Positions 4,461-33,107 of a stretch of DNA of 64,000 bases are shown here, in pieces. The position numbers were made by a program, and so were the translations under genes. Below the pieces are notes generated by a model. It worked only from the letters and a program-made list of their open reading frames with translations, made no database searches and was not told where the DNA came from. Numbering within the stretch: position 1 is the stretch's first letter; each line of letters opens with the position of its first letter. This stretch comes from Aestuariivirga litoralis (GTDB lineage: Bacteria > Pseudomonadota > Alphaproteobacteria > Rhizobiales > Aestuariivirgaceae). The stretch lies in assembly GCF_015714715.1 (NCBI RefSeq), contig NZ_WAHS01000002.1, forward strand, positions 62,001-126,000, given 5' to 3'.

Positions 4461-5489
4461 TCAGGGCAGATTGTCGCGCATGAAAATGTCGATGCGGATG
4501 CGCTCCTGTGCTTCGATCACGGTGGAATTATCGGCCTTGGCCATCAGCACGCGCACAGCGGATCGCACTTCATGTCCGGGGTCCTGGTTGATGATCACAT
4601 CAATGGTGCCCCTGATCAGCGCGCGGCGCGAACCTTCGGTCACTTCATGCGCGATGAACACCACATGCTTGGCGCGGCCACCCACTTCCAATGCAGCCGT
4701 GATGCCCGCCGTGCCACCACCAACGTTATAAATGCCCAGCAGATCGGGATGCTCGCGCAGCAGCTGCTTGGCCAGTTCTTCCGACCGCTCCATGTTGTCG
4801 CGCGATTCCCGCACCGGCAGCACCAGCAGATCAGGGAACTCATGCGCCATCACCTGCTCGAAACCGAACTGACGCTCAATATGGTCGCGCAAGGCCAGCG
4901 AGCCGGCAAACAGGCCCACCTTGCCTTTGCGCCCATGCAGGAAGCGGCCCATCAGCCCGGCCACGGTGCGCCCGGCAGACGAGTTGTCGATGCCTGCATA
5001 ATGCAGGCGTTTCGAACCCGGCACGTCTGACACGAGCGTGACCACGGCAACGCCCTTGGCCACCAAAGCATTGATCGCCTCGCGCACCGCCGGGTGATCC
5101 AGCGCCACCACGGCCACGCCATCGATGCCCTCTTCCAGCCCATCCAGCACCTTGGCCAGCAGCGGGCCGTCAAACACGTCCACCCGCTTGACCATGATGG
5201 CCACGCGCTCGCCCGCCATGCGGCGAGCTGCCTCTTCAACCTCTTCAGAAATGCGGTTCATGAACTCGCCCGCCGTGTTGGGCAGCACGAACCAGAAACG
5301 ATATTCGCGGCCGCGCGCCAGGCGGGCCGCTATGCGGTCGGGCTGGTAGTTCAACTCACGGATGGCGGCTTCGACTTTTTCAATCGTGCGCGCCTTGACT
5401 CCCGGCCTGCGGTTCAGCACACGATCAATGGTGGCCACAGAGACGCCCGCTTTCTGGGCCACATCCTGAATTGTTATTTTTGCCATCAT
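4461..5489 (-). CDS. LacI-family transcriptional regulator
   Basis: A 342-residue repressor. The N-terminal helix-turn-helix (ITIQDVAQKAGVSVATIDRVLN, about residues 5-26) is followed by the hinge NYQPDRIAARLARG and a periplasmic-binding-protein-like sugar-binding domain. Two tandem ATGs (5489, 5486) could start it. It is divergent from the hydantoinase operon at 5549 with only 59 nt between them, so it is the likely regulator of that operon. A small palindrome lies in the gap. The effector is unknown; LacI proteins with this type of ligand domain usually bind sugars or polyols. Confidence 0.9.
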   Translation of the reverse strand: MMAKITIQDVAQKAGVSVATIDRVLNRRPGVKARTIEKVEAAIRELNYQPDRIAARLARGREYRFWFVLPNTAGEFMNRISEEVEEAARRMAGERVAIMVKRVDVFDGPLLAKVLDGLEEGIDGVAVVALDHPAVREAINALVAKGVAVVTLVSDVPGSKRLHYAGIDNSSAGRTVAGLMGRFLHGRKGKVGLFAGSLALRDHIERQFGFEQVMAHEFPDLLVLPVRESRDNMERSEELAKQLLREHPDLLGIYNVGGGTAGITAALEVGGRAKHVVFIAHEVTEGSRRALIRGTIDVIINQDPGHEVRSAVRVLMAKADNSTVIEAQERIRIDIFMRDNLP

Positions 5490-5508
5490 TCTTTTGAAGC
5501 GAATCTAT

Positions 5509-5517
5509 CAAGACTTG
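5509..5517. promoter_or_regulatory. Possible LacI-family operator
   Basis: CAAGACTTG is a 9-nt palindrome around one central base in the 59-nt gap between the divergent regulator and hydantoinase genes. LacI-family operators are palindromes of this kind but usually longer, so this is a weak assignment based on position. Confidence 0.3.
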
Positions 5518-5548
5518 TCAAACGCCAATCATTCGGTAACAACATCTT

Positions 5549-7627
5549 ATGGCACTTCCCCTCAAACTGGCTGCTGATATCGGCGGCACATTCACCGACA
5601 TTGTTCTCGAGCAAGGAAAAAAGCGCTGGAGCGGCAAGATACTCACCACGGTCCACGCGCCTGAAGTGGCCGTGCTGGAAGGCTTGCAACAAGTCATCCG
5701 CGATGCGGGCTTCAAGCCATCCGACGTGGATGTCTTCATTCATGGCACCACGCTGGCCACCAATGCTCTCATCGAACGCAAGGGCGCCAAGACGGCCTTC
5801 ATCACCACCGAAGGCTTCCGCGATGTGATCGAGCAAGGTTATGAAAAGCGCTTCGACCATTATGATTTAATGATTGACCGCGCCTCGCCACTGGTGCCGC
5901 GCCATCTGCGTCTCGGCATCAAGGAACGCCTGGCCACCAATGGCGATGTGCTGATTCCGCTGGACGAGTCAGCCGTACCTGCGCTGGCCGCCACCATCCG
6001 CGAAGAAGGCTGCAAGGCCGTGGCCATCGGGCTTTTGCATTCCTATGCGCATGAAAGCCATGAACGCCGCATTGCCGAGCTACTGAAGCCATTGCTGCCG
6101 GATGACGTGACCATCTGCCTGTCATCGGAAGTCGCACCCGAAATCCGCGAATATGAGCGCTTCTCCACCACGGTCGCCAATGCGTATGTGCGCCCGCTGA
6201 TGGCCAGCTACCTGTTCCGCCTGCGCGACGGCCTGGCCCAGCTGGGCATGGAATGCCCGCTCTATCTAATGATGTCCGGCGGTGGCTTGACCACGCTAGA
6301 AACGGCTGCGCGCTTCCCGATCCGTTTGGTTGAATCCGGCCCTGCAGGTGGCGCGATCCTGGCCAGCCGCATGGCACAGAGTCTCGATCTGCCGGAAGTG
6401 TTGTCTTTCGACATGGGCGGCACGACTGCAAAAATCTGCCTGCTGTCTGATGCAGAGCCTGAACGTGCGCACCGCTTCGAGATCGCGCGTGCCTATAAGG
6501 ACATGAAGGGCTCCGGTATTCCGGTCCGCATTCCCGTGATTGAAATGGTGGAGATCGGTGCCGGCGGTGGCTCCATCGCGCGCGTCGATAAATTGGGCCG
6601 TCTCACTGTCGGCCCCGATAGCGCGGGTTCTACCCCCGGCCCCGTCTCTTATGGGCGTGGTGGCACGATGCCGACGGTCACCGATGCCAATGTGGTGCTG
6701 GGCAAGATCGATCCGGAATTCTTTGCCGGTGGCAAAGTGAAACTGGAAATTGATGGCGCCAAAAATGCCTTCGCCGAACAGATCGGCAGCACGCTTGGGC
6801 TGAAAGATTTCTGGCCCGCCGCAGGCGTGGCCGAAATCGTGGAAGAGAACATGGCCAATGCCGCGCGCGTGCATGCCATTGAGCGCGGCAAAGACATTGC
6901 CAATTGCGTGATGATCGCCTTCGGTGGCGGCGCACCGCTGCATGCTTGCAGATTGGCCGAGAAAGTCGGCGTGTCAAAAATCATTGTGCCACTGGGCGCG
7001 GGCGTGGGTTCCGCCATCGGCTTTTTGCAAGCGCCCGTCGCTTATGAAATCACCAAGAGCGCTGCCGTCAATCTCGATCACTTCGATGCGGCAAAGGTCA
7101 ACCAACTTCTCAAGACCATGGCGCAAGATGCTGAATCTGTTGTCAAACCCGCCATGGAAAAAGGCAAACCTTCGCTCACCATCAAAGCCGATTGCCGCTA
7201 TGTCGGCCAAGGCCATGAGATCCAGGTTTCCCTACCCGTCCGTACACTGACGAATGCCGATGGAAAGAAATTGAAGGCTGCGTTCGAGAGCGCCTACAAG
7301 GCGATCTATGGCCTGGTGATCCCCGGTCAGCAGGCCGAGGCGATCACCTGGTCGGTGACTTCATCATCGCCCATCCCGAAAGTGGAACGCGCCAAGAAGG
7401 CACCGAAGAAGGCCGCCCCCAAGCCGCTGCGCACTCGCCAGATTTTCGATGCTGCAGCAGGCAAGCTGATGAGCGCGCCGGTTTACTGGCGCTTCGATAT
7501 GCCGCCCGGTTCTGCAATCAAGGGCCCGGCGATCATTGCCGAGCATGAAACGTCCACGATCGTCGGCAGCCGCTTCAAGGCCGAGATCAACAGCCTCGGT
7601 CAGATCGTGATGGAGAAGGTGAAATGA
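5549..7627 (+). CDS. Hydantoinase/oxoprolinase subunit A (HyuA family)
   Basis: A 692-residue member of the ATP-dependent hydantoinase A/5-oxoprolinase family. Two actin-like phosphate-binding segments are visible: ADIGGTFTDIV near residues 9-19 and SFDMGGTTAK near residue 288. Family members, with HyuB, open cyclic amides such as N-methylhydantoin or 5-oxoproline, or carboxylate ketones; the substrate cannot be read from sequence. First gene of five overlapping genes (ATGA junctions throughout) read away from a LacI-type regulator. No hydantoin racemase, carbamoylase or permease gene accompanies it, so classic hydantoin salvage is not supported. Confidence 0.9.
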   Translation: MALPLKLAADIGGTFTDIVLEQGKKRWSGKILTTVHAPEVAVLEGLQQVIRDAGFKPSDVDVFIHGTTLATNALIERKGAKTAFITTEGFRDVIEQGYEKRFDHYDLMIDRASPLVPRHLRLGIKERLATNGDVLIPLDESAVPALAATIREEGCKAVAIGLLHSYAHESHERRIAELLKPLLPDDVTICLSSEVAPEIREYERFSTTVANAYVRPLMASYLFRLRDGLAQLGMECPLYLMMSGGGLTTLETAARFPIRLVESGPAGGAILASRMAQSLDLPEVLSFDMGGTTAKICLLSDAEPERAHRFEIARAYKDMKGSGIPVRIPVIEMVEIGAGGGSIARVDKLGRLTVGPDSAGSTPGPVSYGRGGTMPTVTDANVVLGKIDPEFFAGGKVKLEIDGAKNAFAEQIGSTLGLKDFWPAAGVAEIVEENMANAARVHAIERGKDIANCVMIAFGGGAPLHACRLAEKVGVSKIIVPLGAGVGSAIGFLQAPVAYEITKSAAVNLDHFDAAKVNQLLKTMAQDAESVVKPAMEKGKPSLTIKADCRYVGQGHEIQVSLPVRTLTNADGKKLKAAFESAYKAIYGLVIPGQQAEAITWSVTSSSPIPKVERAKKAPKKAAPKPLRTRQIFDAAAGKLMSAPVYWRFDMPPGSAIKGPAIIAEHETSTIVGSRFKAEINSLGQIVMEKVK

Positions 7628-9276
7628 GCAAGCAACCCTCCAGCGCCAACAAGGCCCTCGAAGCCATTCGCACCCAGGTGATGTGGAACCGCCTGATCGC
7701 GGTTGTGGAAGAACAGGCGCAATCGCTTTTGCGCACAGCCTTCGGCACCATCACGCGTGAGGCCGGTGATCTTTCCGCCGGTGTTTATGATCCAGAAGGC
7801 CGGATGATCGCGCAGGCGATGACCGGCACGCCGGGCCATGTGAATACGATGGCCACCGCCGTGAAGCACTTCTTCAAATGGTATCCACAATCCACCATGA
7901 AGCCGGGTGATGTTTACATCACCAATGACCCCTGGCTCGGCACCGGACATCTGTTCGACTACGTGATGATGACGCCGGTGTTCCTCGGCAAGAAGCTCGT
8001 CGCCTTCTTCGCCTCCACCTGCCACGTGATCGATGTGGGCGGCATTGGCTTTTCGGCCAAGGGCAATTCCTCCTTCGATGAAGGCATGTATGTGCCGCAT
8101 ATGATGCTGCGCAAACAGGGCGTGCTGAATGATGACCTGATGAAGGTCATCCTCGGCAACACCCGCAATCCGGTGGAAGTGAAGGGCGACCTGCTTTCGC
8201 TGGTCTCCGCCAATGATACGGGCGCGCGCCGCCTCGTCGAGATGATGACGGAATTCAAGCTGCCGTCCCTCGACAAGCTGGCCAAGCACATCCTCACTCA
8301 GTCCGAAAAGGGCATGCGCGAAGCCATCAAGGCGCTGCCCAATGGCGAATGGTCCTATGAGCTGCCGCTCGATGGCTATGAAAAGCCCATCGTCATCAAG
8401 GCCAAGCTGATCATCAACAATGGCAAGGTGACGGTGGATTACCGCGGCACTTCGTCTGTTTCAATCTACGGCATTAACAGCCCGCGCACCTACACGGAAG
8501 CCTATACAGTCTTCGCGCTGAAGGCGATTGTGGCCCCGCATGTGCCGAACAACATCGGCTCGCTCTCCTGCTTCGACATTGAGACCGACCCGCACACCGT
8601 GGTGGACCCGATCCGCCCCTCGCCCGTCACCTCGCGCCATGTCACCGGGCAAATGCTGGCCGATGCCGTGTTCGGCTGCCTATGCCAGACACTTCCGGGC
8701 AAGGTGCAAGCTGAAAGCGCCGGCTCCATCTGGATGCTGATGTTCAACTCGGCCCATGGGAAAGTGGACCCCGCATTGCTGAAAAACGCGCAGGAATATG
8801 CCGTGCTCTCCATCGGCCTCGGTGGCATTGGCGGCAGGCCAGGCAAGGACGGCCTGTCATGCATGGCCTTCCCCTCCGGCATCGGCGGCATTCCTGTTGA
8901 AATCATTGAGGGCCAGTGCCCGCTCTGGTTCAAGGAAAAGCAGTTCCTGCCCAATTCCGGCGGTGACGGCGAATGGCGCGGCGGACTTTCGCAGCGCTTT
9001 GAAGTGCGCAACCGTGAGGCCACACCCTTCACCATTTCAGCTGCCACCTTTGACCGTATCCGCAACGCTGCTCAGGGCCGCGATGGCGGCAAGCCGGGCT
9101 CGCTCGGCATTGCCAAGCTTGCATCGGGCGCGCATCTTCCCGACAAGGGCGTGCATCTGGTGCCGAGCGGCGATGCCTTGATCATTGAGCTGCCCGGTGG
9201 CGGCGGCTTTGGTGATCCAGCAAAACGTACGTCTGAGAACCGCGCAGCCGACAAGAAAGCGGGAGTAGTGACATGA
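7624..9276 (+). CDS. Hydantoinase/oxoprolinase subunit B (HyuB family)
   Basis: A 550-residue partner of the HyuA-type protein upstream. Typical family stretches include DPEGRMIAQAMTGTPGHVN near the N-terminus, YITNDPWLGTGHLFDYVMM near residue 100, and a C-terminal LPGGGGFGDPAKR. Length agrees with stand-alone HyuB. The start ATG overlaps the hyuA stop (ATGA), and its own stop overlaps the next start in the same way, implying coupled translation and fixed stoichiometry. Substrate unknown. Confidence 0.9.
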   Translation: MSKQPSSANKALEAIRTQVMWNRLIAVVEEQAQSLLRTAFGTITREAGDLSAGVYDPEGRMIAQAMTGTPGHVNTMATAVKHFFKWYPQSTMKPGDVYITNDPWLGTGHLFDYVMMTPVFLGKKLVAFFASTCHVIDVGGIGFSAKGNSSFDEGMYVPHMMLRKQGVLNDDLMKVILGNTRNPVEVKGDLLSLVSANDTGARRLVEMMTEFKLPSLDKLAKHILTQSEKGMREAIKALPNGEWSYELPLDGYEKPIVIKAKLIINNGKVTVDYRGTSSVSIYGINSPRTYTEAYTVFALKAIVAPHVPNNIGSLSCFDIETDPHTVVDPIRPSPVTSRHVTGQMLADAVFGCLCQTLPGKVQAESAGSIWMLMFNSAHGKVDPALLKNAQEYAVLSIGLGGIGGRPGKDGLSCMAFPSGIGGIPVEIIEGQCPLWFKEKQFLPNSGGDGEWRGGLSQRFEVRNREATPFTISAATFDRIRNAAQGRDGGKPGSLGIAKLASGAHLPDKGVHLVPSGDALIIELPGGGGFGDPAKRTSENRAADKKAGVVT

Positions 9277-10034
9277 TGCTCAAATCAGCCGGACTTGCTT
9301 TGGCGTTGTGCCTTGCCAGTGCCACGCCTTCTTTTGCCGGCGATGGTGCTGAACTGAACATCCTCGGCTTCTCCGCCGATAGCCGCTATTTCGCCTTCGA
9401 ACAATTCGGCGAGCAGGATGGCTCAGGCTATGCCTTTGACGAAATTTTCGTCGTCGATCTGACCAAGGATGCCTGGGTAAAAGATTCTCCCATCCGCGTG
9501 CTGGGCAAGGATGACGAGAAGCTGGGTGTCGTGATGCAGCAGGCGCGGGCCAAATATGCAGCGCTTGAGAAAACCTATGCCATCACCTCTCCCGTCCGTG
9601 TGCTGGCGCGCAGCCCGGTCTATGAAGTGATCGAGGACCGCAAGACCATCACTTTCGACACCTGGTATATGTCGAGCGAATTCGGCTCCACCCCCGATGT
9701 GCCCGACACCCTGAAGGAAGTGCGCTATGTGCTGAGCGTGGCGGAAAAGCCATTGCCACGGCCAAGCACCTGCCCTGAGGACATGGGCGACGACTACAAG
9801 GGTTTCACCCTGAAGCTCAAATCCATCAAGGACGGTTCGGAGCGTGAGCTTGTCTCTGATGCGGCCATCCCCAATTCGCGCGGCTGCCCCTTTGGCTATG
9901 ACGTTCAGGCCGTGGTTGATGGTTTCAGCGATACGCAAACTGATCAGGTGGTCGCCATCCTGGGTGTCTACTCGCTGGGCTTCGAAGGCAAGGACCTGCG
10001 CTACATGGCCGTACCCTTCAAACTGAAGCCATGA
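9273..10034 (+). CDS. Secreted DUF2259 protein
   Basis: A 253-residue protein with a clear signal peptide (MMLKSAGLALALCLASATPSFA, cleavage after AFA near residue 22). The mature N-terminus (LNILGFSADSRYFAFEQFGEQDGSGYAFDEIFVVDL) matches DUF2259, a family of predicted secreted proteins. Its role is unknown. Its ATG overlaps the hyuB stop and its stop overlaps the next start, so an exported protein is embedded in a cytoplasmic enzyme operon. It could bind or sense the substrate in the periplasm, or it may simply be a passenger. Confidence 0.75.
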   Translation: MMLKSAGLALALCLASATPSFAGDGAELNILGFSADSRYFAFEQFGEQDGSGYAFDEIFVVDLTKDAWVKDSPIRVLGKDDEKLGVVMQQARAKYAALEKTYAITSPVRVLARSPVYEVIEDRKTITFDTWYMSSEFGSTPDVPDTLKEVRYVLSVAEKPLPRPSTCPEDMGDDYKGFTLKLKSIKDGSERELVSDAAIPNSRGCPFGYDVQAVVDGFSDTQTDQVVAILGVYSLGFEGKDLRYMAVPFKLKP

Positions 10035-10837
10035 AGCTTTCGGCTGAACATATCGATCAGTATCGCGCCGACGGTGCGACTGTAGTGCGCGGCGCATTCT
10101 CGCCTGCGCAGATGAAACTGCTGGAGCAAGGCATCACCCGCAACATGGCGGAGCCTTCGGCCCTCGCCATCGTGGCCAGCCGCCCGGAAGACCCCGGCTA
10201 TTTCATCGAAGACTTCTGCAACTGGCGGCGCATCGATGAGTATAAGCGCTTCGTTGAAGAAAGCCCCGCCGCCGCCATTGCCGCGCAGCTCATGGGTGCG
10301 CAGCAGACGCGCCTCTATCACGATCACTTGCTGGTCAAAGAGCCGAAGACCACGGCCAAGACGCCCTGGCACCAGGATCAGCCCTACTACAATATCGACG
10401 GCTTCCAGAATGTCTCGATGTGGCTGCCGGTTGATCCGGTGGCAGAAGCCTCGACCCTGAAATTCGTTGCCGGCTCGCATAAAGGCGGCTGGCTCATGCC
10501 ACGCACCTTCATGAACAATGAAGCCAAGTGGTTTCCCGAAGGCACGCTGAAAGAACTGCCGGACATCGATGGCAACCCGGACCAATTCAAGATTCTCGCC
10601 TGGGCGCTGGAGCCGGGCGATGCCGTGTTTTTCCATATGCTCACGCTGCACGGCGCGGGCGGCGTGGCAAGTGGAAGCCGCCGCCGCGTGCTTTCTGTGC
10701 GTTTCATCGGCGATGACGTGACCCACGCGCCACGCAAATGGCGCACGTCGCCGCCCTTCCCCGGCCTCGAACAGCGCCTGCCCGCCGGTGCCGCGATGAC
10801 CACAGAAGAATTCCCCATCCTTTGGAGCGCCTCATGA
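10031..10837 (+). CDS. PhyH-family Fe(II)/2-oxoglutarate dioxygenase
   Basis: A 268-residue phytanoyl-CoA dioxygenase family protein. The iron site is visible as WHQD (His114, Asp116) with a distal His near residue 207 in LTLHGAGG, followed by an arginine-rich strand (GSRRRVLSVRF) that would hold 2-oxoglutarate. Members hydroxylate small molecules such as acyl-CoAs, ectoine, amino acids or phosphonates, and the substrate here is open. It is fourth in the LacI-linked operon, overlapping both neighbours by 4 nt. An oxidative step beside ring-opening HyuAB suggests degradation of a small heterocycle or modified sugar. Confidence 0.88.
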   Translation: MKLSAEHIDQYRADGATVVRGAFSPAQMKLLEQGITRNMAEPSALAIVASRPEDPGYFIEDFCNWRRIDEYKRFVEESPAAAIAAQLMGAQQTRLYHDHLLVKEPKTTAKTPWHQDQPYYNIDGFQNVSMWLPVDPVAEASTLKFVAGSHKGGWLMPRTFMNNEAKWFPEGTLKELPDIDGNPDQFKILAWALEPGDAVFFHMLTLHGAGGVASGSRRRVLSVRFIGDDVTHAPRKWRTSPPFPGLEQRLPAGAAMTTEEFPILWSAS

Positions 10838-11388
10838 GCAATCTTTATCAATCCGCCCTCGCCGAACTCGGCACTGTTTTCGACAAGCTGAATGATGCAG
10901 ATGTCGACAAGGCCTGCAGCATGATCGCCGCCGCGAAGAAGATCGTGGTCTTCGGCGGCGGACGTGAACGCCTGCAGATCATGGGCTTTGCGATGCGCCT
11001 CTGTCACATGGGTCTTGCGGTTGCCGTCGAGGGCGACATGACCACGCCTCCGGTCGGCAAGGGCGATCTCTTCATCGTCACCTGTGGCCCCGGCGAAATT
11101 TCAACCGCACTCGCATTGATGGGTGTGGCCAAGGATGCCGGCGCCAAGATCCTGTTCATCACCGCCCAGCCCAAGGGGCGTGGTGCGGCCTACGCTGATT
11201 TCGTTTTGCTGCTGCCGGCACAAACCATGGCCGATGACCAAGGTGAAAAGAAATCATCCACGCTGCCCATGGGCTCGCTTTTTGAGGGCGCGCTTTTCGT
11301 ATTGTTCGAAGTGATGATCCTGAAACTCATCAAGCAGATGGCCATCAAGCCCGAAGCGATGCGCGCCAATCACACCAATCTCGAATAG
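10834..11388 (+). CDS. SIS-domain sugar-phosphate isomerase-like protein
   Basis: A 184-residue single SIS domain (KKIVVFGGGRERLQIMGFAMRLCHMG near residues 30-55, then an acidic/serine region near 70-95). The size is that of 6-phospho-3-hexuloisomerase (HxlB/PHI) and related sugar-phosphate isomerases. Start chosen: ATG 10834, overlapping the dioxygenase stop as ATGA; an upstream in-frame ATG inside that gene is less likely. Last gene of the operon. A SIS enzyme together with a LacI regulator points to a sugar or polyol moiety in the substrate. Confidence 0.82.
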   Translation: MSNLYQSALAELGTVFDKLNDADVDKACSMIAAAKKIVVFGGGRERLQIMGFAMRLCHMGLAVAVEGDMTTPPVGKGDLFIVTCGPGEISTALALMGVAKDAGAKILFITAQPKGRGAAYADFVLLLPAQTMADDQGEKKSSTLPMGSLFEGALFVLFEVMILKLIKQMAIKPEAMRANHTNLE

Positions 11389-11655: not shown

Positions 11656-13704
11656 TCAGCTCATCCTTGGCATGCAAAGCGGCCATAGGGGCGCCAGGCC
11701 CCAATCCATATCTGGGCTGAAGTCACCCGCATTTTCAGCCAGCGGCTCACCCGTAAAAAATGCCAGCAGGATCGCGATGCGCCTGTCATGGCCGGCACTG
11801 TCTTGGTTGTAATCCTTAAACGTGCGCCGTGACTTGGCGAGATAACGGATGGCCGCATCAAGGCTCTGCCCATTGATCCCCCTATAATCATGCAGGTTGA
11901 TCCCAATTCTGGCGCTAACGCAGGCCAGCGCAGCCCAGGCTTCGAGGCTGAACAAGGAATAATGCAGCGGCAGGTGGCGCTTCAGCTCCTCCGGCTGTGC
12001 GCCGGACCCATTGATCTGTTCGGCAAGTTTGACGGAAAGCCCCCGGCAAATGCGCGTGGCAGATTCAACATTGCCGGTGAAAAGATAAAGCTGCACGGCC
12101 AGCACGGCAGTCCACAATGAAATATTGTTGGGCCTTTCAAGTGCGAAGGGAAGTTGTCCGCTCTTCTCAACGTCCTGGAGCAGATCGCGGCACCATTGGC
12201 GAATGTCCTGTGCTTGCTTTGCGGGCAACGCTTTCAGTTTGATTAGCGTGTCCACCGTCTGAGGCAAAAGCCAGAGGTCACGGGCAGCGACCAACCCGTA
12301 AGGATTTGGGGTTTTCCGCTCAGGCCGGAGTTGCGCAAAACGCAAATTGGGATTCATTCGCGTCTTCTTGTCGAGTATCCAGGTTTCCAGAATACCGCGT
12401 GCCCGCGCCGCATATTCCTTCTTGCCCAACACATAGGCCCCGTGCGCCAACACTGAGCTGTCACGCAAGAATTGACTAAGAGCGGCCCTGTCATCCCTGC
12501 CCGCACTTTCAGGTGCTACTACACGCCGCGGCGGGCGCAACATCTGGCTAACACAGGCTAGAACCGAACGCGGCGATAACAAATCCAATCGTCCAAAGCC
12601 TGTCGGGTAGCGCGGGGCACAGAAAAAATCCTGCTTGTTGCCACTGGGCGCAGTTGCCTCCTTGTCAAGAATGCGCGCGGTGGGCGAGGCCATGACTTGT
12701 GCACAAAGCCCATCCAGCGCTGTGCGATGCGAATTCAGTTCCGCAGCGTAGGTGTGGAACACATCCGCGCGGGCGAAATTTTTCTTGGCCTGCGCAATGT
12801 CCAGCTCCGCCGATAGCAATTCCACGCCTTCAAAGCGCGCACTCCAACGGCCCAAATCATTGTTTTCAACCTTGGCCGATGAGTGGGTGGGCAGGCGCAT
12901 GGTGAATCCGCCCGTTACGAATTGGCCCCTGCTCTTGCTCGGGGGAAGACAGACATTATCCCATGGCGGCGACCACCATTTGTCCCACGGGCCTGGCACG
13001 CCAATCCGTCGGAAAAGCTCGGTCTTGTTCTTGTTGCCGTAACGCCGGGCTTCATCAAATCTGTCCTCGGCATCAAATCGGAACGCGATCTGCGGCTCGT
13101 CAGGGTTTTTTGGCGGCGAAACCAGGCTGGCAATTTCGTTGTGTTCATAAATACGCTGCATGCCAATGGCGACAAATTTCGCATCGCCCGCCGCACGGGT
13201 CGCTTCCACGAAAGATCGCCACCCCTCGCGCGCGAACATGATGCCCCCATCAAAAGGCAGCACCCATTTCGAACGGGCCTGCCCATGTGACAGGGCCAGA
13301 TTGCGGGCATGGTTGATGTTGATCAGGGCCTGTGACTTGTGCCTGATCTTCCATTCGAGGCTGAGCACCGGAAAGGATTCACCCCATTTCGCAGCCTGGC
13401 GCGCGCTGAGTCTCGGCAGGCCGCTGACATCGAGGAAAGCTGTGAAATGCGCCTGCGTGACAAAAGGAATGACAAGGTAATTGTGCCCCGCCGCTTTGAT
13501 CACCCGGATCATTTCCTGAGCCAGTGCAGGGTCCACAATGCGGTTCAGGATCCACCACTTCTCCGCTTCGGGAAACGCATCCTCATGCGCAATGATATAT
13601 TGCAGGTTTTCGAGCCCGCTGCGGCTGGCGTGGCGGGGCGGCAGGTCATTGCCCAAAATGCGGTAGATCGAAAATTCCTTCGGTTCTCGCGCAACGCGCT
13701 TCAT
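11656..13704 (-). CDS. Glycosyltransferase-like/alginate-lyase-like fusion protein
   Basis: A 682-residue two-part protein. Residues 1-330 look like a glycosyltransferase-type domain: an N-terminal YRILGNDLPPRH motif, NHARNLALSHGQ, and a DxD-like LPFDGG. Residues 370-680 match the alginate lyase/heparinase-like (alpha/alpha) toroid: AARDLWLLPQ, NNISLWTAV near 526, and QPEELKRHLPLHYSLFSLEAW near 568-588, close to the family's Q-P-x-E...LHYSxFxLEA signature. No signal peptide or membrane segment. Its ATG overlaps the kynureninase stop by 4 nt. A role in making or trimming a uronic-acid-rich polysaccharide is inferred. The expected catalytic NNHG is only partly kept (NNIS), so lyase activity is doubtful. 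Confidence 0.7.
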   Translation of the reverse strand: MKRVAREPKEFSIYRILGNDLPPRHASRSGLENLQYIIAHEDAFPEAEKWWILNRIVDPALAQEMIRVIKAAGHNYLVIPFVTQAHFTAFLDVSGLPRLSARQAAKWGESFPVLSLEWKIRHKSQALININHARNLALSHGQARSKWVLPFDGGIMFAREGWRSFVEATRAAGDAKFVAIGMQRIYEHNEIASLVSPPKNPDEPQIAFRFDAEDRFDEARRYGNKNKTELFRRIGVPGPWDKWWSPPWDNVCLPPSKSRGQFVTGGFTMRLPTHSSAKVENNDLGRWSARFEGVELLSAELDIAQAKKNFARADVFHTYAAELNSHRTALDGLCAQVMASPTARILDKEATAPSGNKQDFFCAPRYPTGFGRLDLLSPRSVLACVSQMLRPPRRVVAPESAGRDDRAALSQFLRDSSVLAHGAYVLGKKEYAARARGILETWILDKKTRMNPNLRFAQLRPERKTPNPYGLVAARDLWLLPQTVDTLIKLKALPAKQAQDIRQWCRDLLQDVEKSGQLPFALERPNNISLWTAVLAVQLYLFTGNVESATRICRGLSVKLAEQINGSGAQPEELKRHLPLHYSLFSLEAWAALACVSARIGINLHDYRGINGQSLDAAIRYLAKSRRTFKDYNQDSAGHDRRIAILLAFFTGEPLAENAGDFSPDMDWGLAPLWPLCMPRMS

Positions 13705-14933
13705 GTCACCGCGGCCTTGGCCTTGAATTTCGGCTTGTCCCAGAGGCGCTTGGAGAGAACCTGATGCAGATGCTCCACCGCATCATAGACATCCGCATAA
13801 GACACGTAGAGCGGTGTGAAGCCAAAGCGCATCAGATTGGGCGCCCGGAAATCGCCGATGACTTTGCGCGAGATCAGTGCCTGCATGATGGCGTAGCTTT
13901 CGTCATGCGCAAGGCAAACATGGCTGCCGCGCTGGCTCCAATCCTGTTCGCCGTGAACGGATATGCCGAATTTCCCGCAACGCTCCTCCGCCAATTTTGC
14001 AAACAGCGCGCATTGCTTCATCGCCTTGGCATGCAGTTTCTCCATCGACACGCCCTTCCACACATCCATGGCCGCATCCAGCGCCACCATGTTCAGCATC
14101 GGCTGCGTGCCAACTTGAAAACGCGTCACATTTTCAGCGCCGGCAAACTGCTGCGCAAACGCAAAGGGCTTGGCATGACCCCACCAGCCCACCAATGCAG
14201 GCATCACTTCTTTCTGCAGGCGTGGATGCACAAAAGCAAAGGCTGGCGCACCTGGCCCGCCATTCAGATATTTATAGGTGCAGCCCACTGCAAAATCCGC
14301 ATCGACATCCATCAGACGCCCCGGCACTGAGCCTGCGCTATGCGCCAGATCCCAGATCATCAGCGCACCATTTTCATGCGCCTTGGCAGTGATCGCCTTC
14401 ATGTCGTGGCGGTGTGACGTGCGGTAATCCACTTCGGTGACCATCACCACCGCTACATCTTCATTGATCGATTGCAGAACCTGATCCGGCTCCACCACCT
14501 TGAGCACATGCCCATCCGCCATGAATTGCGTGAGGCCTTGCGCCACATAAAGATCGGACGGGAAATTGCCGCTGTCCGACAGGATCACCTTGCGCCCGCG
14601 CCTTTTGGCCACCGCAGCAGAAAGCACCTTGAACAGATTGACCGAGATCGTATCCGCCACAATAACGCTGCCGGGCACCCCGCCGATCAGCTTGGCGATC
14701 TTGTCACCGATCACTTGCGGCAGGTGAAACCAGCCATGCTTGTTCCATGACGTGATGAGATCACGCCCCCATTCCACTTCCACCGCATGCTTCACCCGCG
14801 CCACAGCCGCCTTGGGCAACACGCCCAGCGAATTTCCGTCGAGATAGATCATGCCTTTTGGAATGCTGAATGCATTGCGCTTTTTTGCAAAAACATCCTT
14901 GCGGTCGAGGGCTACAGCGTCTTTACGATTCAT
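13701..14933 (-). CDS. kynU: Kynureninase
   Basis: PLP enzyme splitting kynurenine to anthranilate and alanine in tryptophan breakdown. Visible are YLDGNSLGVLP near the N-terminus, DLAHSAGSVPGRL, and the cofactor-lysine region CTYKYLNGGPGAPAF. At 410 residues the length is normal. Start chosen: ATG at 14933 with a perfect AGGAGGA ribosome site at 14941-14947; an upstream start would extend it 40 residues without family support. No tryptophan dioxygenase or kynurenine formamidase is nearby. It is followed, with a 4-nt overlap, by the glycosyltransferase/lyase fusion, an unexpected partner. Confidence 0.92.
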   Translation of the reverse strand: MNRKDAVALDRKDVFAKKRNAFSIPKGMIYLDGNSLGVLPKAAVARVKHAVEVEWGRDLITSWNKHGWFHLPQVIGDKIAKLIGGVPGSVIVADTISVNLFKVLSAAVAKRRGRKVILSDSGNFPSDLYVAQGLTQFMADGHVLKVVEPDQVLQSINEDVAVVMVTEVDYRTSHRHDMKAITAKAHENGALMIWDLAHSAGSVPGRLMDVDADFAVGCTYKYLNGGPGAPAFAFVHPRLQKEVMPALVGWWGHAKPFAFAQQFAGAENVTRFQVGTQPMLNMVALDAAMDVWKGVSMEKLHAKAMKQCALFAKLAEERCGKFGISVHGEQDWSQRGSHVCLAHDESYAIMQALISRKVIGDFRAPNLMRFGFTPLYVSYADVYDAVEHLHQVLSKRLWDKPKFKAKAAVT

Positions 14934-14982
14934 CTTGGTCTCCTCCTGTAAATTCGCCACAAACCGCCCTATTCTGCAAGCC

Positions 14983-21053: not shown

Positions 21054-21305
21054 TCAGCCCCCCGGCACCCGGGGCATCAGGTAAATCTCCGCACCTGCGG
21101 GCAGTTCCGTTTCCCACTTGTCCCGGTAAATCTTGCCATTGATCGAAACGGCCACCCCGCGCTTAATATGCGGCTCCATACCGGGATGCGCGTCGATGAG
21201 CTTGCGGAACAGCTCACGGATGGTGCTGGCCTGCACCTCTAGCGTCTCCGCTCCGCCTACCAGCGGACGGAGCGCACCCCAGAGATGGATTTTGTGGACG
21301 CTCAC
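21054..21305 (-). CDS. MoaD/ThiS-like ubiquitin-fold protein
   Basis: An 83-residue beta-grasp protein ending in Gly-Gly (MPRVPGG), the tail that is adenylated and thiocarboxylated in MoaD and ThiS. VAVSINGKIYRDKWETEL is typical of MoaD-like proteins. Its start overlaps the stop of the molybdenum hydroxylase large subunit by 4 nt, which suggests a dedicated sulfur carrier for molybdopterin synthesis or cofactor sulfuration of that enzyme. No moaE is adjacent. Confidence 0.8.
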   Translation of the reverse strand: MSVHKIHLWGALRPLVGGAETLEVQASTIRELFRKLIDAHPGMEPHIKRGVAVSINGKIYRDKWETELPAGAEIYLMPRVPGG

Positions 21306-23584
21306 CCCTTCTTGTGGGCCTTCAGTGATTTCAGCACGCGCGGTGGCGACATTGGCAGATGCGTCTGGCGTACGCCGGTGGCATTGCTCATCGCGATCGC
21401 CAAAGCAGCCAGCGGCGGCACGATCGAGGTTTCGCCCACGCCGCGCACGCCGTAGGGGTGATGCGGATTGGGGATTTCCAAAATCTGCGTGTCAATGAAG
21501 GGCAAGTCCGAACAGACGGGAATGCGGTAATCGAGGAAGCCGGCATTCTGCAGGCGGCCATCCTTTCCGTAAACATATTCCTCGTTCAGCGCCCAGCCGA
21601 TGCCCTGCGCGGCACCGCCCTGATACTGGCCTTCCACGTAAGCCGGATGCAGCGCCTTGCCAGCGTCTTGAATCACTGTGTAGCGCTTGACGAGACTGCG
21701 GCCGGTTTCCGGATCAACCTCGATATCGGCAATATGCGTGGCGAAGGACACGCCGGCATTATCGGCCGAGATTTCGGCATGGCCGGCGACAGGCCCGCCG
21801 GTGCTCGACGCCTGTGCAGCGATTTCCTTCAGCGACAAAGGCGCGCGGTTGCCGTGATGCACGCCCTTGGCATGGGCGCCACCGTCTTTCCATTCCACTT
21901 CTTCAAGCGGAATTTCCCAGATCTTGGCGGCGCGCTCACGCAGCACCGTGATGGCGTTGCGCGCCGCGAACACGGCGGCCATCGAGCTGGAGAATGTGCC
22001 ACGGCTGCCATCGGTCATGTCATTATGACCGAGCGAAGACGTATCAGCCACGATGGAACGCACGGACTCATAAGGCACGCCCAGTTCTTCGGCGACAGCC
22101 ATGGCGATGGCGGCACGTGAGCCGCCCACGTCAATCGTGCCCTGTGCCACAGTCACAAAACCATCGGGCGTGACATTGAGATCAATGCAGGTCTGGCCGC
22201 CGAAATTGAACCAGAAACCGCAAGCCATGCCGCGGCCCTGGTTCTTGCCCAGAGGCGCCTTCATATGCGGATGATTCTTGGCGGCCTGCAGCGTGGGGCC
22301 AATGCCGATGGGGCCATAGACTGGGCCGTAAGACGAGCGTGTGCCCTCCTTCGCCGCATTCTTGATACGGAAATCAATCGGGTCCATGCCGATCTTTTCA
22401 GAAAGTTCCTCCACCGTGCTTTCAATCGCGAAGGCCGCAGCCGGGGCTGAAGGTGCGCGGTAAGCGGCGCATTTCGGGCGGTTGACGATCACGTCCTTGG
22501 CCACCGTTTTCACATTCTTCAAATCGTAGCAGGCAAAGGCGGTCATCGCGCCGAATTCGGCCCAGTTCGACGGGAACGCCCCGCCCTGATAGCGCAGCTC
22601 GGCCCAGGCCGCAGTGATGGTGCCGTCCTTCTTGGCGCCGATCTTCACGTCGATGGACGTCGAAGAGGTTGGCCCGGTGCAACGGAACACTTCATCACGC
22701 GTCATCGTCAACTTCACAGGGCGGTTGGCCTTGCGTGACAGAGCGAGTGCGAGCGGTTCAGCCCATACATGCGTCTTGCCGCCGAAGCCGCCACCGATTT
22801 CCGACGAGGTCACGCGCAGCTTGTTGGCATCAAGGCCCAGCAAAGATGCGCACTGGTTGCGGTACACGAAATGGCCTTGGGTGCAGACCCACATTTCAGC
22901 CATTCCATCGGGTGAGACCGATGCAGTCACTGAATGCGGCTCGATATAACCCTGATGCGTCTGCTCGGTTTTATACGAACGGCTGATCACCACATCGGCT
23001 TCAGCAAAACCCGCTTCCACATCGCCATGGCCATATTCGGAATATTTGTTCTGGTTGCTGGCAACGCTGGGCTGCTCCGGCAGGCCTTCGGTGAAAATAT
23101 GCGCGTGAATGACGGGGGCACCTTTGGCCAGCGCCTCATCCACGTCGGTCACATGCGGCAATTGCTTGTAGGTGACTTCAATCAGCTTCAACGCTTTGCG
23201 CGCGGTGGTGGCGTCAATCGCAGCCACGGCAGCAACAGCATGGCCATCATAGAGAGCCTTCTGGCGCGCCATGCAGTTTTCCAGAATGTCGAGCAGCCCA
23301 CGATCGCCATCGGTGAGATCGGGCAGATCCTTCGAGGTGATGACGGCTTTTACACCCGCCAGCTTCTCGGCCTTTGACGTGTCGATCTTCACGATCTGCG
23401 CATGGGCATGCGGTGAACGCAGCACCAGGCCGACGAGTTGCCCCGGCATGTTGTAATCCGCACCATAGCGGGCGCGGCCCGTCACCTTGTCCACACCATC
23501 AGGGCGGCGCGGGCGGGTGCCGATCACCTTGAATTGCTTTTCGACGCGGTCGGGATTCATCGGACCAATATTGTCAGCAGCCAT
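21302..23584 (-). CDS. Xanthine dehydrogenase-family molybdopterin-binding subunit
   Basis: Catalytic large subunit (760 residues) of a three-subunit molybdenum hydroxylase. Visible are GRARYGADYNMPGQLVG near the N-terminus, the cofactor segment GGGFGGKTHVWAEP, an AYRAPSAPAAAF loop, and the catalytic glutamate region VRGVGETSIVPP near residue 730. The AYRAPSA loop differs from the AYxCSFR of true CO dehydrogenase, so CO oxidation is unlikely. A purine, aldehyde or N-heterocycle substrate is possible. Order is FAD subunit, Fe-S subunit, this gene, then MoaD-like, in one run. Confidence 0.9.
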   Translation of the reverse strand: MAADNIGPMNPDRVEKQFKVIGTRPRRPDGVDKVTGRARYGADYNMPGQLVGLVLRSPHAHAQIVKIDTSKAEKLAGVKAVITSKDLPDLTDGDRGLLDILENCMARQKALYDGHAVAAVAAIDATTARKALKLIEVTYKQLPHVTDVDEALAKGAPVIHAHIFTEGLPEQPSVASNQNKYSEYGHGDVEAGFAEADVVISRSYKTEQTHQGYIEPHSVTASVSPDGMAEMWVCTQGHFVYRNQCASLLGLDANKLRVTSSEIGGGFGGKTHVWAEPLALALSRKANRPVKLTMTRDEVFRCTGPTSSTSIDVKIGAKKDGTITAAWAELRYQGGAFPSNWAEFGAMTAFACYDLKNVKTVAKDVIVNRPKCAAYRAPSAPAAAFAIESTVEELSEKIGMDPIDFRIKNAAKEGTRSSYGPVYGPIGIGPTLQAAKNHPHMKAPLGKNQGRGMACGFWFNFGGQTCIDLNVTPDGFVTVAQGTIDVGGSRAAIAMAVAEELGVPYESVRSIVADTSSLGHNDMTDGSRGTFSSSMAAVFAARNAITVLRERAAKIWEIPLEEVEWKDGGAHAKGVHHGNRAPLSLKEIAAQASSTGGPVAGHAEISADNAGVSFATHIADIEVDPETGRSLVKRYTVIQDAGKALHPAYVEGQYQGGAAQGIGWALNEEYVYGKDGRLQNAGFLDYRIPVCSDLPFIDTQILEIPNPHHPYGVRGVGETSIVPPLAALAIAMSNATGVRQTHLPMSPPRVLKSLKAHKKG

Positions 23585-23587
23585 GGC

Positions 23588-24058
23588 TCAAGCCCTCATT
23601 TCTTTGGCAGCGGCCTGAACGGCGCGCACGATCTTGTCATAGCCGGTGCAGCGGCAGAGATTGCCGGCGAGACCGAACCGGATTTCTTCTTCCGATGGAT
23701 CAGGGTTCTTGGTCAGCAGCGCCTTGGCCGCCATCAAAATGCCCGGCGTGCAGATGCCGCATTGAAGGGCAGCGCCATCAATGAAGTTCTGCTGCAGCGG
23801 ATGCAGCTTCGCCCCATCGGCCATGCCTTCGATGGTCTCAACCGACTTGCCATCCATCTCCGCACCTAGCACCAGGCATGAGCAGACGAGACGGCCATCG
23901 AGGATCACCGAGCACGCGCCGCAATCGCCCGTGCCGCAGCCTTCCTTGGCGCCCGTGAGCCCCAAGCGGTTGCGCAGCACATCGAGCAGCACTTCATCTT
24001 CAGCGCAGGTGAATTCGACCGGGTCACCATTGACGGTGGTTTGAACATGAGCTCCCAT
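23588..24058 (-). CDS. (2Fe-2S)-binding subunit of molybdenum hydroxylase
   Basis: A 156-residue electron-transfer subunit with two [2Fe-2S] sites. The plant-ferredoxin-type cluster is in EGCGTGDCGACSVILDG (about residues 40-56) and the helical-domain cluster in QCGICTPGILM and GNLCRCTGYDKI. It passes electrons from the molybdenum site to the FAD subunit. It starts within 1 nt of the FAD subunit's stop and lies 3 nt upstream of the large subunit, so the three are one transcript. Confidence 0.94.
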   Translation of the reverse strand: MGAHVQTTVNGDPVEFTCAEDEVLLDVLRNRLGLTGAKEGCGTGDCGACSVILDGRLVCSCLVLGAEMDGKSVETIEGMADGAKLHPLQQNFIDGAALQCGICTPGILMAAKALLTKNPDPSEEEIRFGLAGNLCRCTGYDKIVRAVQAAAKEMRA

Positions 24059-24921
24059 TATTTTCCTCCTGCGCGGCTAAAGGCAATTTCAGCAGCGCGG
24101 CGCGCCAGCACGCCTGCCACTTCGGTGCGGAACTCAACTGTGCCGCGCTTGTCATCAATCGGTTTGCAGGCTGCGGAACAGGCCGCAGCAAGCTTGGCCT
24201 TGGCTTCGTCATCCAGCTTGGTGCCGATGATCGCCTTGGCGGCATCTTTCACCAGGATAGCAGTGATTGCCACCGCACCCAGTGCCACGCGGGCAGAGGT
24301 GATCACACCCTTGGCATCGAGCGTCAGGTTCACCGCACAAGACACAACGGCAATATCCATTTCGGTGCGCGGAATGAAACGCAGATAGGCATCGCCCGAC
24401 CGCGCCGCCTTCTTCGGTAATTCAATCGCAGTGATGAATTCGCCTTTCTTCAGATTGGTGCGGCCCACGCCAGCGGGCACATCTTCCACCGCCAGTTTGC
24501 GCGAACCCTTGGCGCTGGTGATCACAACTTTCGCACCCGCAGCCATCAGGCCTGGCACGCTGTCTGCGGCGGGCGAGGCATTGCAGAGATTGCCAGCCAT
24601 CGTGCAGCGGCCTTGAACCTGCTTCGAACCAATGAGGCTTGCACCTTCGACCACGCCGGGCCAGGCCTTCACCAGATCCTTGTTCTCAGTGAGTGCGGCG
24701 CAAGGCACAGCAGCACCGATCACAAAACTGGATGCCGATTTCTTGATTTCCTTGATGCCCTTGATCGCCTTGATATCGACAATCAGATCCGGCTCCAGCA
24801 TGCCGGCCTTCATCTTCACCAGCAGGTCCGTACCCCCGGCAAGCACAAAAGCTTTGCCTTTTTCCTTGGCCAGCAAAGTGGCCGCCTCTTTCGCTGTTCC
24901 CGGCTGTATATAGCGCATCAT
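24058..24921 (-). CDS. FAD-binding subunit of molybdenum hydroxylase
   Basis: A 287-residue CoxM/XdhB-type subunit. The two FAD-binding motifs are recognisable: FVLAGGTDLLVKM near residue 25 and CTMAGNLCNASPAAD near residue 106. First gene of the run of FAD, Fe-S, Mo and MoaD-like genes. Its start lies 141 nt from the divergent phosphotransferase start, where promoters for both should sit. Substrate not predictable. Confidence 0.92.
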   Translation of the reverse strand: MMRYIQPGTAKEAATLLAKEKGKAFVLAGGTDLLVKMKAGMLEPDLIVDIKAIKGIKEIKKSASSFVIGAAVPCAALTENKDLVKAWPGVVEGASLIGSKQVQGRCTMAGNLCNASPAADSVPGLMAAGAKVVITSAKGSRKLAVEDVPAGVGRTNLKKGEFITAIELPKKAARSGDAYLRFIPRTEMDIAVVSCAVNLTLDAKGVITSARVALGAVAITAILVKDAAKAIIGTKLDDEAKAKLAAACSAACKPIDDKRGTVEFRTEVAGVLARRAAEIAFSRAGGK

Positions 24922-25062: not shown

Positions 25063-25938
25063 TTGAGCGACCATATGACACGCCTGCACAGCCTGCCGAT
25101 TTGGCAAGGCGCACTTGAAGTTGAGCCACTGTCCGGTGGTGTGTCCAACCATGGCTTCAAGGTGAAAGATCAAAGCAGCACTTACGTTGCGCGCTTTGGC
25201 GACGACTATCCCTTCCATCAAGTTTCACGCGCCCGCGAAGCCATCGCCTCGCGCGCCGCCTTTGAGGCAGGCCTTTCACCCGAACTGGTTTACGCTGCCC
25301 CCGGCGTCACTGTGCTGCGCTTCATCGAGGCTAAAACTTATGCCGAGGTGGATGTGCGGGCGAACTGGCAACCCTGCGTCGATATCATCAAGCGCTGCCA
25401 TCACGAGATGCCCCGCCGCGTGCTCGGCCAGGGGGCCATCTTCTGGGTGTTCCAGATCATCCGCGACTATGGCGCAACGCTGATTGCAAAAAATCATGCG
25501 CGCGCAGGTGAAGTGGCGTCATGGCTGAAAGTGGTGGACCAGTTGGAAGCCGAGCAAGTGCCGTTGCCCATCATCTTCGGGCATCATGACTTGCTCCCCA
25601 CCAACTTCATGCACGATGGCAAGCGCATCTGGCTGATTGACTGGGAATATGGAGCCTTCGGCACGGCGATGTTTGATCTCGCCAACATCGCAGCCGCCAA
25701 TTCCTTCGACGACAATCTCGAAGCGCAAATGCTGGAGCGTTATTTTGAGGGGAAGCCGGATGAGGCCCTGGCACGCGCCTTCTCAGCCATGAAAGTGGGG
25801 GCGGCTTTGCGTGAAGCCACCTGGGGCATGATCTCGGAACTGTTCCTCAATGCCCCAGGCGTCGACTACGTGGCTTACGCGGCGGAATATCTGGGCCGCT
25901 ATGAAGCGGCGCTCAGCAACCACCGCAGCCGGTTTTAG
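25063..25938 (+). CDS. Choline/aminoglycoside kinase-like phosphotransferase
   Basis: A 291-residue kinase-fold protein of the APH/choline kinase type. The nucleotide-loop region is EPLSGGVSNHGFKVKDQ near residue 17, the catalytic segment is FGHHDLLPTNFMHDG (HxDxxxxN) near residue 172, and the metal-binding motif is IDWEYG near residue 191. The VSNxxF start and WEYG ending favour choline/ethanolamine kinase over antibiotic kinase. Start is uncertain: TTG 25063 has AGGAGA 5 nt upstream, and ATG 25075 is the alternative. The stop overlaps the convergent transglycosylase stop (TTAG). Confidence 0.85.
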   Translation: MSDHMTRLHSLPIWQGALEVEPLSGGVSNHGFKVKDQSSTYVARFGDDYPFHQVSRAREAIASRAAFEAGLSPELVYAAPGVTVLRFIEAKTYAEVDVRANWQPCVDIIKRCHHEMPRRVLGQGAIFWVFQIIRDYGATLIAKNHARAGEVASWLKVVDQLEAEQVPLPIIFGHHDLLPTNFMHDGKRIWLIDWEYGAFGTAMFDLANIAAANSFDDNLEAQMLERYFEGKPDEALARAFSAMKVGAALREATWGMISELFLNAPGVDYVAYAAEYLGRYEAALSNHRSRF

Positions 25939-32318: not shown

Positions 32319-33107
32319 ATGCATGACATCCTCGATCTCGTTCGTTATCCGCTGCATCAACCAGGCACTGCAGCTTGGTCTGCCCTCGTTAAAAACTGCC
32401 AGCAAGAGCTTGATCGCGAAGGCATGTTCAATCTCGAAGGCTTCATGAAGCCTGAGGCCTTGGCCAAGGCGATGACCGAAATCCGCCCGGTGATGGAAAC
32501 GCTCTCATTCGTGCACAAGCGCCGGCACAATGTTTATTTCAAGAAAGACGTGCCGGGCATCGAGGCTGGCCACCCAGCCCTCAATATGGTGGACACGATC
32601 AACCACACGGTATGCGCTGACCAGATCCCGCAAAGCACTTTGATGTGGGTCTATGAATGGCCGCATTTCGCGGTGTTTCTGGCCGCTGTGATGAACAAGA
32701 ACGTGCTCTATCCCATGCGCGATCCATTGGCCCGCGCCAATGTCATGTGTTACCGCGATGGCGAAGCGCTGAACTGGCATTTCGACCGGTCGGAATTCAC
32801 CACCACGCTGCTGCTGCAGGCACCATCAAGCGGTGGCGATTTCGAATACCGCAAGGACCTGCGCACCGCAGAAGATCCGAATTTTGCAGGCGTAGCCAAA
32901 GTGCTGCGCGGCCAGGACAATGACACGCGCTCTCTCAAATTGGCGGCCGGCACATTGAACGTGTTCCGCGGCGTGAACACCCTGCACCGGGTGACGCCAT
33001 GCGTCGGACCGAATGAGCGCTACATCGCAGTTCTCTCTTACTTTGAACGGCCCGGAGTGATGTTTTCGAAAGAGGAACAGGTGGGCTTTTACGGCCGCGC
33101 GGCCTGA
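32319..33107 (+). CDS. ArpA/HalD-like 2OG-Fe(II) oxygenase
   Basis: A 262-residue protein of the family that includes ArpA-like and BesD/HalD-type amino acid oxygenases. The iron facial triad is WHFD (His154, Asp156) and His223 in TLHRVTPCVGPNERY, with Arg in the last segment for 2-oxoglutarate. Because the acidic residue is kept, hydroxylation rather than halogenation is expected. ATG 32319 gives the natural start MHDILDLVRYP; a GTG at 32268 would add 17 residues. Likely substrate an amino acid, controlled by the divergent LysR protein. Confidence 0.82.
   Translation: MHDILDLVRYPLHQPGTAAWSALVKNCQQELDREGMFNLEGFMKPEALAKAMTEIRPVMETLSFVHKRRHNVYFKKDVPGIEAGHPALNMVDTINHTVCADQIPQSTLMWVYEWPHFAVFLAAVMNKNVLYPMRDPLARANVMCYRDGEALNWHFDRSEFTTTLLLQAPSSGGDFEYRKDLRTAEDPNFAGVAKVLRGQDNDTRSLKLAAGTLNVFRGVNTLHRVTPCVGPNERYIAVLSYFERPGVMFSKEEQVGFYGRAA

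Follow-up and report, generated by a model that had tools for sequence, protein, structure and literature searches.

Organisation of the locus

We analysed a stretch of 64,000 nucleotides (nt) from Aestuariivirga litoralis (assembly GCF_015714715.1, contig NZ_WAHS01000002.1, forward-strand positions 62,001-126,000), hereafter the window, with a focus on an operon for a HyuAB-type cyclic amidohydrolase and on the kynureninase gene found with it. The genome of the window is designated G000, other genomes carry further G-codes and fetched loci L-codes. According to the open reading frame (ORF) calls, five genes, HyuA, HyuB, DUF2259, PhyH and SIS, follow one another on the plus strand without gaps (5549-11388), with an ATGA overlap at all four junctions. 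A LacI-family regulator (4461-5489, minus strand; Pfam LacI, 63 bits) with a Peripla_BP_4 ligand domain (149.5 bits) is transcribed divergently, and 59 nt (5490-5548) separate its start codon from that of HyuA. These 59 nt form a putative divergent promoter/operator region, with a core that is near-identical in side-by-side sequences of the three species sharing the HyuAB-PhyH order.

HyuA (5549-7627) is assigned as the ATP-binding (ASKHA) subunit of the amidohydrolase (Hydantoinase_A, 277 bits, gathering score 22.9) and HyuB (7624-9276) as its metal-site subunit (Hydantoinase_B, 450 bits, gathering score 26.8). They are followed by a DUF2259 protein (9273-10034; Pfam, 88.6 bits) with an N-terminus that appears signal-like by eye, a PhyH-family Fe(II)/2-oxoglutarate oxygenase (10031-10837; Pfam, 93.8 bits) and a single-domain SIS protein (10834-11388), whose Pfam SIS score of 24.7 bits lies just below the gathering score of 25. 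Gene identities, the four junctions and the divergent regulator at 59 nt all agree with an initial annotation of this DNA, and the gene list, read by eye, bears out its remark that no transporter gene is adjacent.

In the window, 14 of 41 pairs of same-strand neighbours overlap by 4 nt; with 40 fetched loci added, the figure is 86 of 407. These counts use our own scripted gene calls, whose codon scores had been trained on the window, and the run of four described here is the only one among them. Although it makes this a noteworthy operon, such overlaps are frequent in these genomes, and the ATGA run is a weak pointer to a shared pathway. Promoter-like sites (5 versus 2.4 expected) and terminator-like sites (12 versus 6.9 expected) were also counted; none of them is usable at the HyuA start or between the genes.

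Conservation across the genus

The genus sample comprised 37 genomes including G000; 27 of the others carry HyuB of at least 70% identity, and all 27 loci were fetched (G016, with its HyuAB locus split over two contigs, L293 and L294, was counted once). LacI is near HyuAB in 19 of the 27. The stretch fetched around HyuAB also contains a kynureninase (KynU) homologue in 16 genomes and an arylformamidase in 10; nine have a kinase-like protein, and nine a molybdenum (Mo) hydroxylase subunit of at least 70% identity (the large subunit in seven). PhyH accompanies HyuAB in two genomes (G013 and G020), DUF2259 and SIS adjoin it in 0/27, and no DUF2259 match was obtained in G013 and G020. Since several loci end at contig ends, the numbers of genomes with a given gene are minimum values, and absences weigh less on short contigs.

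The five-gene order was thus seen in this genome only among the genomes searched, an outcome that the initial annotation itself had named as refuting, and the reading of the five genes as a single pathway is not supported. As a unit the operon holds in part: LacI-HyuAB is conserved; DUF2259 and SIS were found beside HyuAB in this species only. The initial annotation had suggested an undescribed pathway here, for a lactam with a sugar or polyol part. The gapless ATGA coupling speaks for it, as do the LacI ligand domain, nearest to sugar-binding proteins, and the relatives of the SIS protein, which sit elsewhere among aldose epimerase, sugar ABC transporter and similar genes (names of neighbouring genes, such as HutF, HIU hydrolase, Tmm, Dmm, Fhs, FolD, IolG, OtnK, arsenic genes and LIV transporter, were read by eye here and below unless a family model is given). 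The sugar hint from SIS is weak, as SIS is beside HyuAB in none of the 27 genomes. With LacI-HyuAB persisting without DUF2259, SIS and, mostly, PhyH, we regard a common sugar-lactam pathway as very improbable.

The kynureninase-linked island

The conserved partner, which the initial annotation had not linked to the operon, is kynureninase. In the window KynU (13701-14960, minus strand; TIGR01814, 310.2 bits, above the cut-off of 246.4) begins 4.4 kb past the end of HyuB and 2.3 kb past that of the operon; DUF2259, PhyH, SIS, a 65-residue ORF and a gene (11656-13704) whose 682-residue product has an alginate-lyase domain at the C-terminus lie in between. The latter gene and that of kynureninase overlap by 4 nt, and a shared role is not evident. 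A glycosyltransferase label for it was dropped, as Pfam finds the alginate-lyase domain.

Further downstream, the window carries a three-subunit Mo hydroxylase (large, Fe-S and FAD subunits; 21302-24921, minus strand), which matches the models for xanthine dehydrogenase, 4-hydroxybenzoyl-CoA reductase and similar enzymes, all below cut-off. It is adjoined by a small protein (21054-21305, minus strand), MoaD/ThiS-like by eye and found in the same place in L190, L290 and L291, and by a Choline-kinase/APH-like protein (25075-25938, plus strand; Pfam Choline_kinase and APH), a member of the same island. Compact copies with the order LacI|HyuAB-KynB-KynU-kinase-Mo hydroxylase are found in L188, L190, L289 (with an additional sarcosine-oxidase-like gene) and L291, and L290 has a compact island without the kinase. 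The window holds all parts of the fullest island except the arylformamidase, spread over 21 kb. The arylformamidase model is passed in L190 and L291, and the kynureninase model by KynU of the window, of L190 and by one of the two homologues that flank HyuAB in L184 (5948-7183 and 12627-13859; one scores 314 bits and passes, the other 228, below the cut-off).

Outside the genus, a class-wide draw of 385 genomes yielded HyuB of 56-63% identity in eight of the 384 others, in nine loci. A kynureninase homologue is near HyuAB in seven of these nine orthologous loci, and the two without it are stretches of only 8.2 and 10 kb (the latter, L260, covers 10 kb of a 25.7-kb contig). No KynU was found in 12 loci of other HyuAB or in 40 control loci fetched for SIS, DUF2259 or PhyH (HyuAB loci were searched at E 1e-15 and filtered by coverage, controls at E 1e-10 or 1e-20). 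The difference between 7/9 and 0/12 gives a Fisher P of 3e-4, uncorrected for kinship among the loci. Of three KynU tested outside the genus, one passes the model (246.8 bits), and the other two (L255 and L256) fall just short of it. In a 41-row tree the HyuB orthologues group in a single clade (35 rows, support 100/100), apart from six other HyuB. In a phylum-wide draw, none of 397 other genomes had a HyuB at E 1e-185, and the 198 plasmid records with HyuB were all below 60% identity.

Given LacI in 19/27 and KynU in 16/27 genus loci and in 7/9 loci outside, against 0/12 and 0/40, LacI|HyuAB with KynU makes up the older unit, joined in the fullest copies by arylformamidase, the kinase-like protein and Mo hydroxylase. 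The LacI-HyuAB-kynureninase island is supported, with gaps. In the literature searched, no publication joined kynureninase, hydantoinase and gene cluster, but this does not show the island to be undescribed.

Motifs and proposed chemistry of HyuAB

Hydantoinase_A and Hydantoinase_B domains lie in two adjacent genes, as in the HyuAB family. HyuA has both DxGGT motifs (DIGGT, 10-14, and DMGGT, 288-292) and the GxxPGP motif (GSTPGP, 360-365) for ATP. An Asp-His-Asp-His metal site is indicated in HyuB by spacing and alignment: D49, H109, D112 and H134 resemble in spacing the CapB ligands D41, H99, D102 and H124, which, like the reference ATP motifs and the structure code 6yra for CapAB, are given in an excerpt of PMC8453981. 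Both subunits align nearly full length with N-methylhydantoinase (PDB 7hk5) and with CapAB, the two-subunit layout of which they share. These motifs and alignments make activation of a lactam by ATP and its hydrolysis at the metal likely: HyuA, with its ASKHA ATP site, would phosphorylate the carbonyl of the lactam, and HyuB would hydrolyse the activated ring. The ring-opening role that the initial annotation had proposed is in line with the retained motifs, and we consider lactam hydrolysis by HyuAB very probable. Its remark that the set matches no hydantoin, oxoproline or acetone pathway also finds support: the matches to curated models of caprolactamase and acetophenone carboxylase were all below cut-off; for caprolactamase, HyuAB reached 479.8 and 157.8 bits against equivalog cut-offs of 1000.

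The neighbours suggest what the lactam could be. Kynureninase and arylformamidase, together with genes resembling indolepyruvate oxidoreductase that adjoin HyuAB in L254 (293.7 bits, below the cut-off of 650.9; POR domain), make an oxindole our first-choice substrate. HyuAB would then belong to a catabolic island under LacI control, alongside kynureninase and, where the island is fullest, arylformamidase, the kinase-like protein and the three-subunit Mo hydroxylase. Its substrate would be an oxindole-type lactam, either oxindolylalanine or 2-oxindole-3-acetate formed by C2 hydroxylation of an indole. HyuAB would open the oxindole ring, while arylformamidase and kynureninase would convert formylkynurenine and kynurenine to anthranilate.

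In anaerobic indoleacetate degradation a Mo hydroxylase acts ahead of IaaCE. Likewise a HyuAB-type lactamase in an indole context, IaaCE is an ATP-dependent 2-oxoindoleacetate lactamase, proposed in excerpts of PMC8453981 and PMC5214803 to open 2-oxoindoleacetate or its CoA ester with ATP. No mutase or CoA-transferase set was noticed by eye in the window, where the partner is instead kynureninase. The kynurenine pathway itself is represented by the window KynU and the KynB of relatives, which pass their family models. To our knowledge, HyuAB is not part of the textbook version of this pathway, and tryptophan dioxygenase, present in six of the 37 genus genomes, was not found in 13 of the 16 genomes that have KynU near HyuAB. 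This absence fits the uptake of already oxidised tryptophan products. A search for indoleamine dioxygenase gave no match in the 37 genomes, but as its control was equally silent, it is uninformative.

An ATP-dependent lactam hydrolase in an indole/kynurenine-type island, with an oxindole as its likely substrate, is our best explanation of the locus as a whole, held tentatively; taken by itself, the derivation of the substrate from tryptophan or indole is possible but doubtful. Several observations weigh against this reading. Among solved relatives, HyuA and HyuB are both closest to N-methylhydantoinase, the ligand domain of LacI most resembles sugar-binding proteins, and IaaCE was likened to HyuAB by description rather than by sequence. 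KynU and HyuAB are convergent or divergent in most copies, so they do not form one operon. KynU was not seen near HyuAB in 11 of the 27 genus genomes. Short contigs are among these loci (L287, L288, L293/L294, L191 and L179), but L178, L180, L181, L183 and L189 are without it over 17.7-20 kb, their HyuAB lying near dimethylamine, purine or one-carbon genes by eye, and the close relative G013 has no KynU on a whole 28-kb contig (L174, L300). Some KynU homologues miss the kynureninase cut-off of 246.4 bits, namely those of L255 (242.8), L256 (236.0) and the sole one of L182 (38% identity, 216.6). The nine outside loci come from few genera and thus represent fewer independent events, and the HyuB tree has long-branch warnings and a midpoint root. 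Finally, G000 carries a tryptophan dioxygenase of its own, on contig 1.

A narrower version of the oxindole proposal would make the island a salvage route for oxidised tryptophan. KynB and KynU would take N-formylkynurenine and kynurenine, while HyuAB would open the lactam of oxindolylalanine, the three compounds being named together as common oxidation products in an excerpt of PMC3766880. Light or oxidants would form these products outside the cell, and the route would need no tryptophan dioxygenase; this would account for the absence of any match to that enzyme in 13/16 genomes. We consider this version improbable. If it is true, HyuAB would be an ATP-dependent oxindolylalanine lactamase, an activity of which we know no example. 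A link to ergothioneine or hydantoin-5-propionate was dropped after a literature search for it returned nothing.

In L178, L181 and L183, HyuAB is flanked by dimethylamine-oxidation-like and xanthine/5-hydroxyisourate-like genes (by eye), without kynureninase.

The PhyH oxygenase and a hydantoin-type alternative

The HxD...H facial triad of PhyH is kept: H114 and D116 are invariant and H207 is conserved in at least 90% of an alignment of 32 rows, and all three are invariant in the 25 rows of a second alignment. The structure model has a pLDDT of 88.5. The top match in both sequence and fold is MysH, an Fe/2-oxoglutarate dioxygenase of mycosporine-like amino acids, which shares the triad, but only 25% identity in the fold alignment.

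A HutH-cluster gene lies within six genes of PhyH relatives of at least 60% identity in 23 of 72 loci. These are the named PhyH loci left from 80 after eight had been dropped, in which no gene call reached E 1e-60 with PhyH; HutH is here a cluster built by 40% identity links, and of its members only that of L040 was tested against the family model. This HutH passes, as do HutH, HutU and HutI of L231. In Limnohabitans, PhyH relatives sit in purine/allantoin-like clusters (by eye). HyuA/HyuB is near PhyH in only one of the 80 named loci, L033 (record JAGWTZ010000024.1), which is one of the two HyuAB-PhyH cases already counted. On these grounds the substrate of PhyH is probably a small nitrogenous compound, and the association of PhyH with HyuAB is young.

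A conserved PhyH (about 60% identity across phyla) thus occurs in hut operons and purine-like clusters (L040, L050-L111). Its role there may be unassigned, as phytanoyl-CoA dioxygenase is unmentioned among the literature matches listed.

The same neighbourhoods bear on another explanation, in which HyuAB would open a hydantoin or imidazolone ring derived from histidine, purines or creatinine, and PhyH would oxidise the same imidazole class, for example by N-demethylation or ring hydroxylation. Besides the hut and purine-like contexts of PhyH relatives, an annotated dihydropyrimidinase lies about 6 kb from a 44% identical PhyH in L285, N-methylhydantoinase is the nearest solved relative of HyuA and HyuB, and purine or methylamine genes occur near some HyuAB loci (by eye). 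The window itself, at 48949-50243, encodes an (S)-ureidoglycine aminohydrolase (519.6 bits, over cut-off) in ATGA overlap with a ureidoglycolate-lyase-like gene (below cut-offs). However, PhyH and HyuAB are seldom together from either side (2/27 and 1/80), and the hut operon of G000, complete by eye and with a HutH that passes its model, lies on another contig without PhyH. We regard this explanation as rather unlikely. A place for the window PhyH in the hut pathway was rejected, as the hut operon elsewhere in G000 contains no PhyH. The ureidoglycolate-lyase-like gene is followed, on the opposite strand, by a gene of the beta-eliminating-lyase family.

Probable assembly of the operon

The comparison of close relatives suggests how the operon came together. 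In G020, PhyH follows HyuB after 47 nt, if the ATG is its start, with no gene between, and arsenic-like genes (by eye) and then kynureninase come after it. G013 has 551 nt between HyuB and PhyH, holding an ORF of no Pfam family; a relic of DUF2259 in this gap was considered and rejected, as only chance-length DNA matches to DUF2259 occur. The HyuB of G033 groups with that of G013 (89/95); in G033 it directly abuts kynureninase, and PhyH was not found in this genome (82% complete). The window PhyH groups with those of G013 and G020 (86/96) and then with those of G025, G004, G007 and G032, which are located elsewhere than at HyuAB.

DUF2259 has relatives of at best 46% identity, located downstream of a LIV-type ABC transporter operon (by eye) in nine of ten fetched loci; in stretches fetched from G000, G020, G013 and G021 the LIV-type operon is without DUF2259. 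The structure model of DUF2259, made without an alignment, has a pLDDT of 40.5. The nearest family of the SIS protein is that of 6-phospho-3-hexuloisomerase (HxlB) and YckF, with the MGSLFE stretch kept. It scores 151 bits against TIGR03127, below the equivalog cut-off of 160, and 93 bits with YckF (1m3s), and no hexulose phosphate synthase was seen by eye among the window neighbours.

With HyuB-PhyH in G013 and G020, the PhyH tree, and DUF2259 and SIS only here, PhyH seems to be the first arrival and the other two later ones. The three genes would have slid in behind HyuB, PhyH in an ancestor shared with the nearest relatives and DUF2259 and SIS subsequently in this lineage; that the last two are late recruits is highly likely. 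All three are probably co-transcribed with HyuAB, yet would be dispensable for its reaction.

It could be argued that the whole operon is a patchwork, with genes caught behind a regulated promoter at an insertion-prone spot downstream of HyuB and sharing no substrate. The stretch after HyuB differs in every close relative (G033, G020, G013 and the window), and 4-nt overlaps are common in these genomes. Three species, however, have the HyuAB-PhyH order in common, with proteins 80-90% identical, and selection may therefore be holding PhyH in place; we consider a patchwork not very likely.

Other features of the window

At its start (6-1520), the window encodes a protein with RTX repeats, in which Pfam finds calcium-binding repeats and, at the C-terminus, a serralysin-type domain (M10_C). 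A second match to a family of the Fe/2-oxoglutarate type, Pfam HalD (halogenase D, 47 bits), lies at 32319-33107.

Implications

HyuAB genes are common and, in our experience, mostly named by guess. The tie between HyuAB and kynureninase across several alphaproteobacterial genera provides a short, testable list of substrates for one group of these enzymes. The locus also illustrates that a perfectly ATGA-coupled operon need not be a pathway, as two of its five genes were found next to HyuAB in a single genome.

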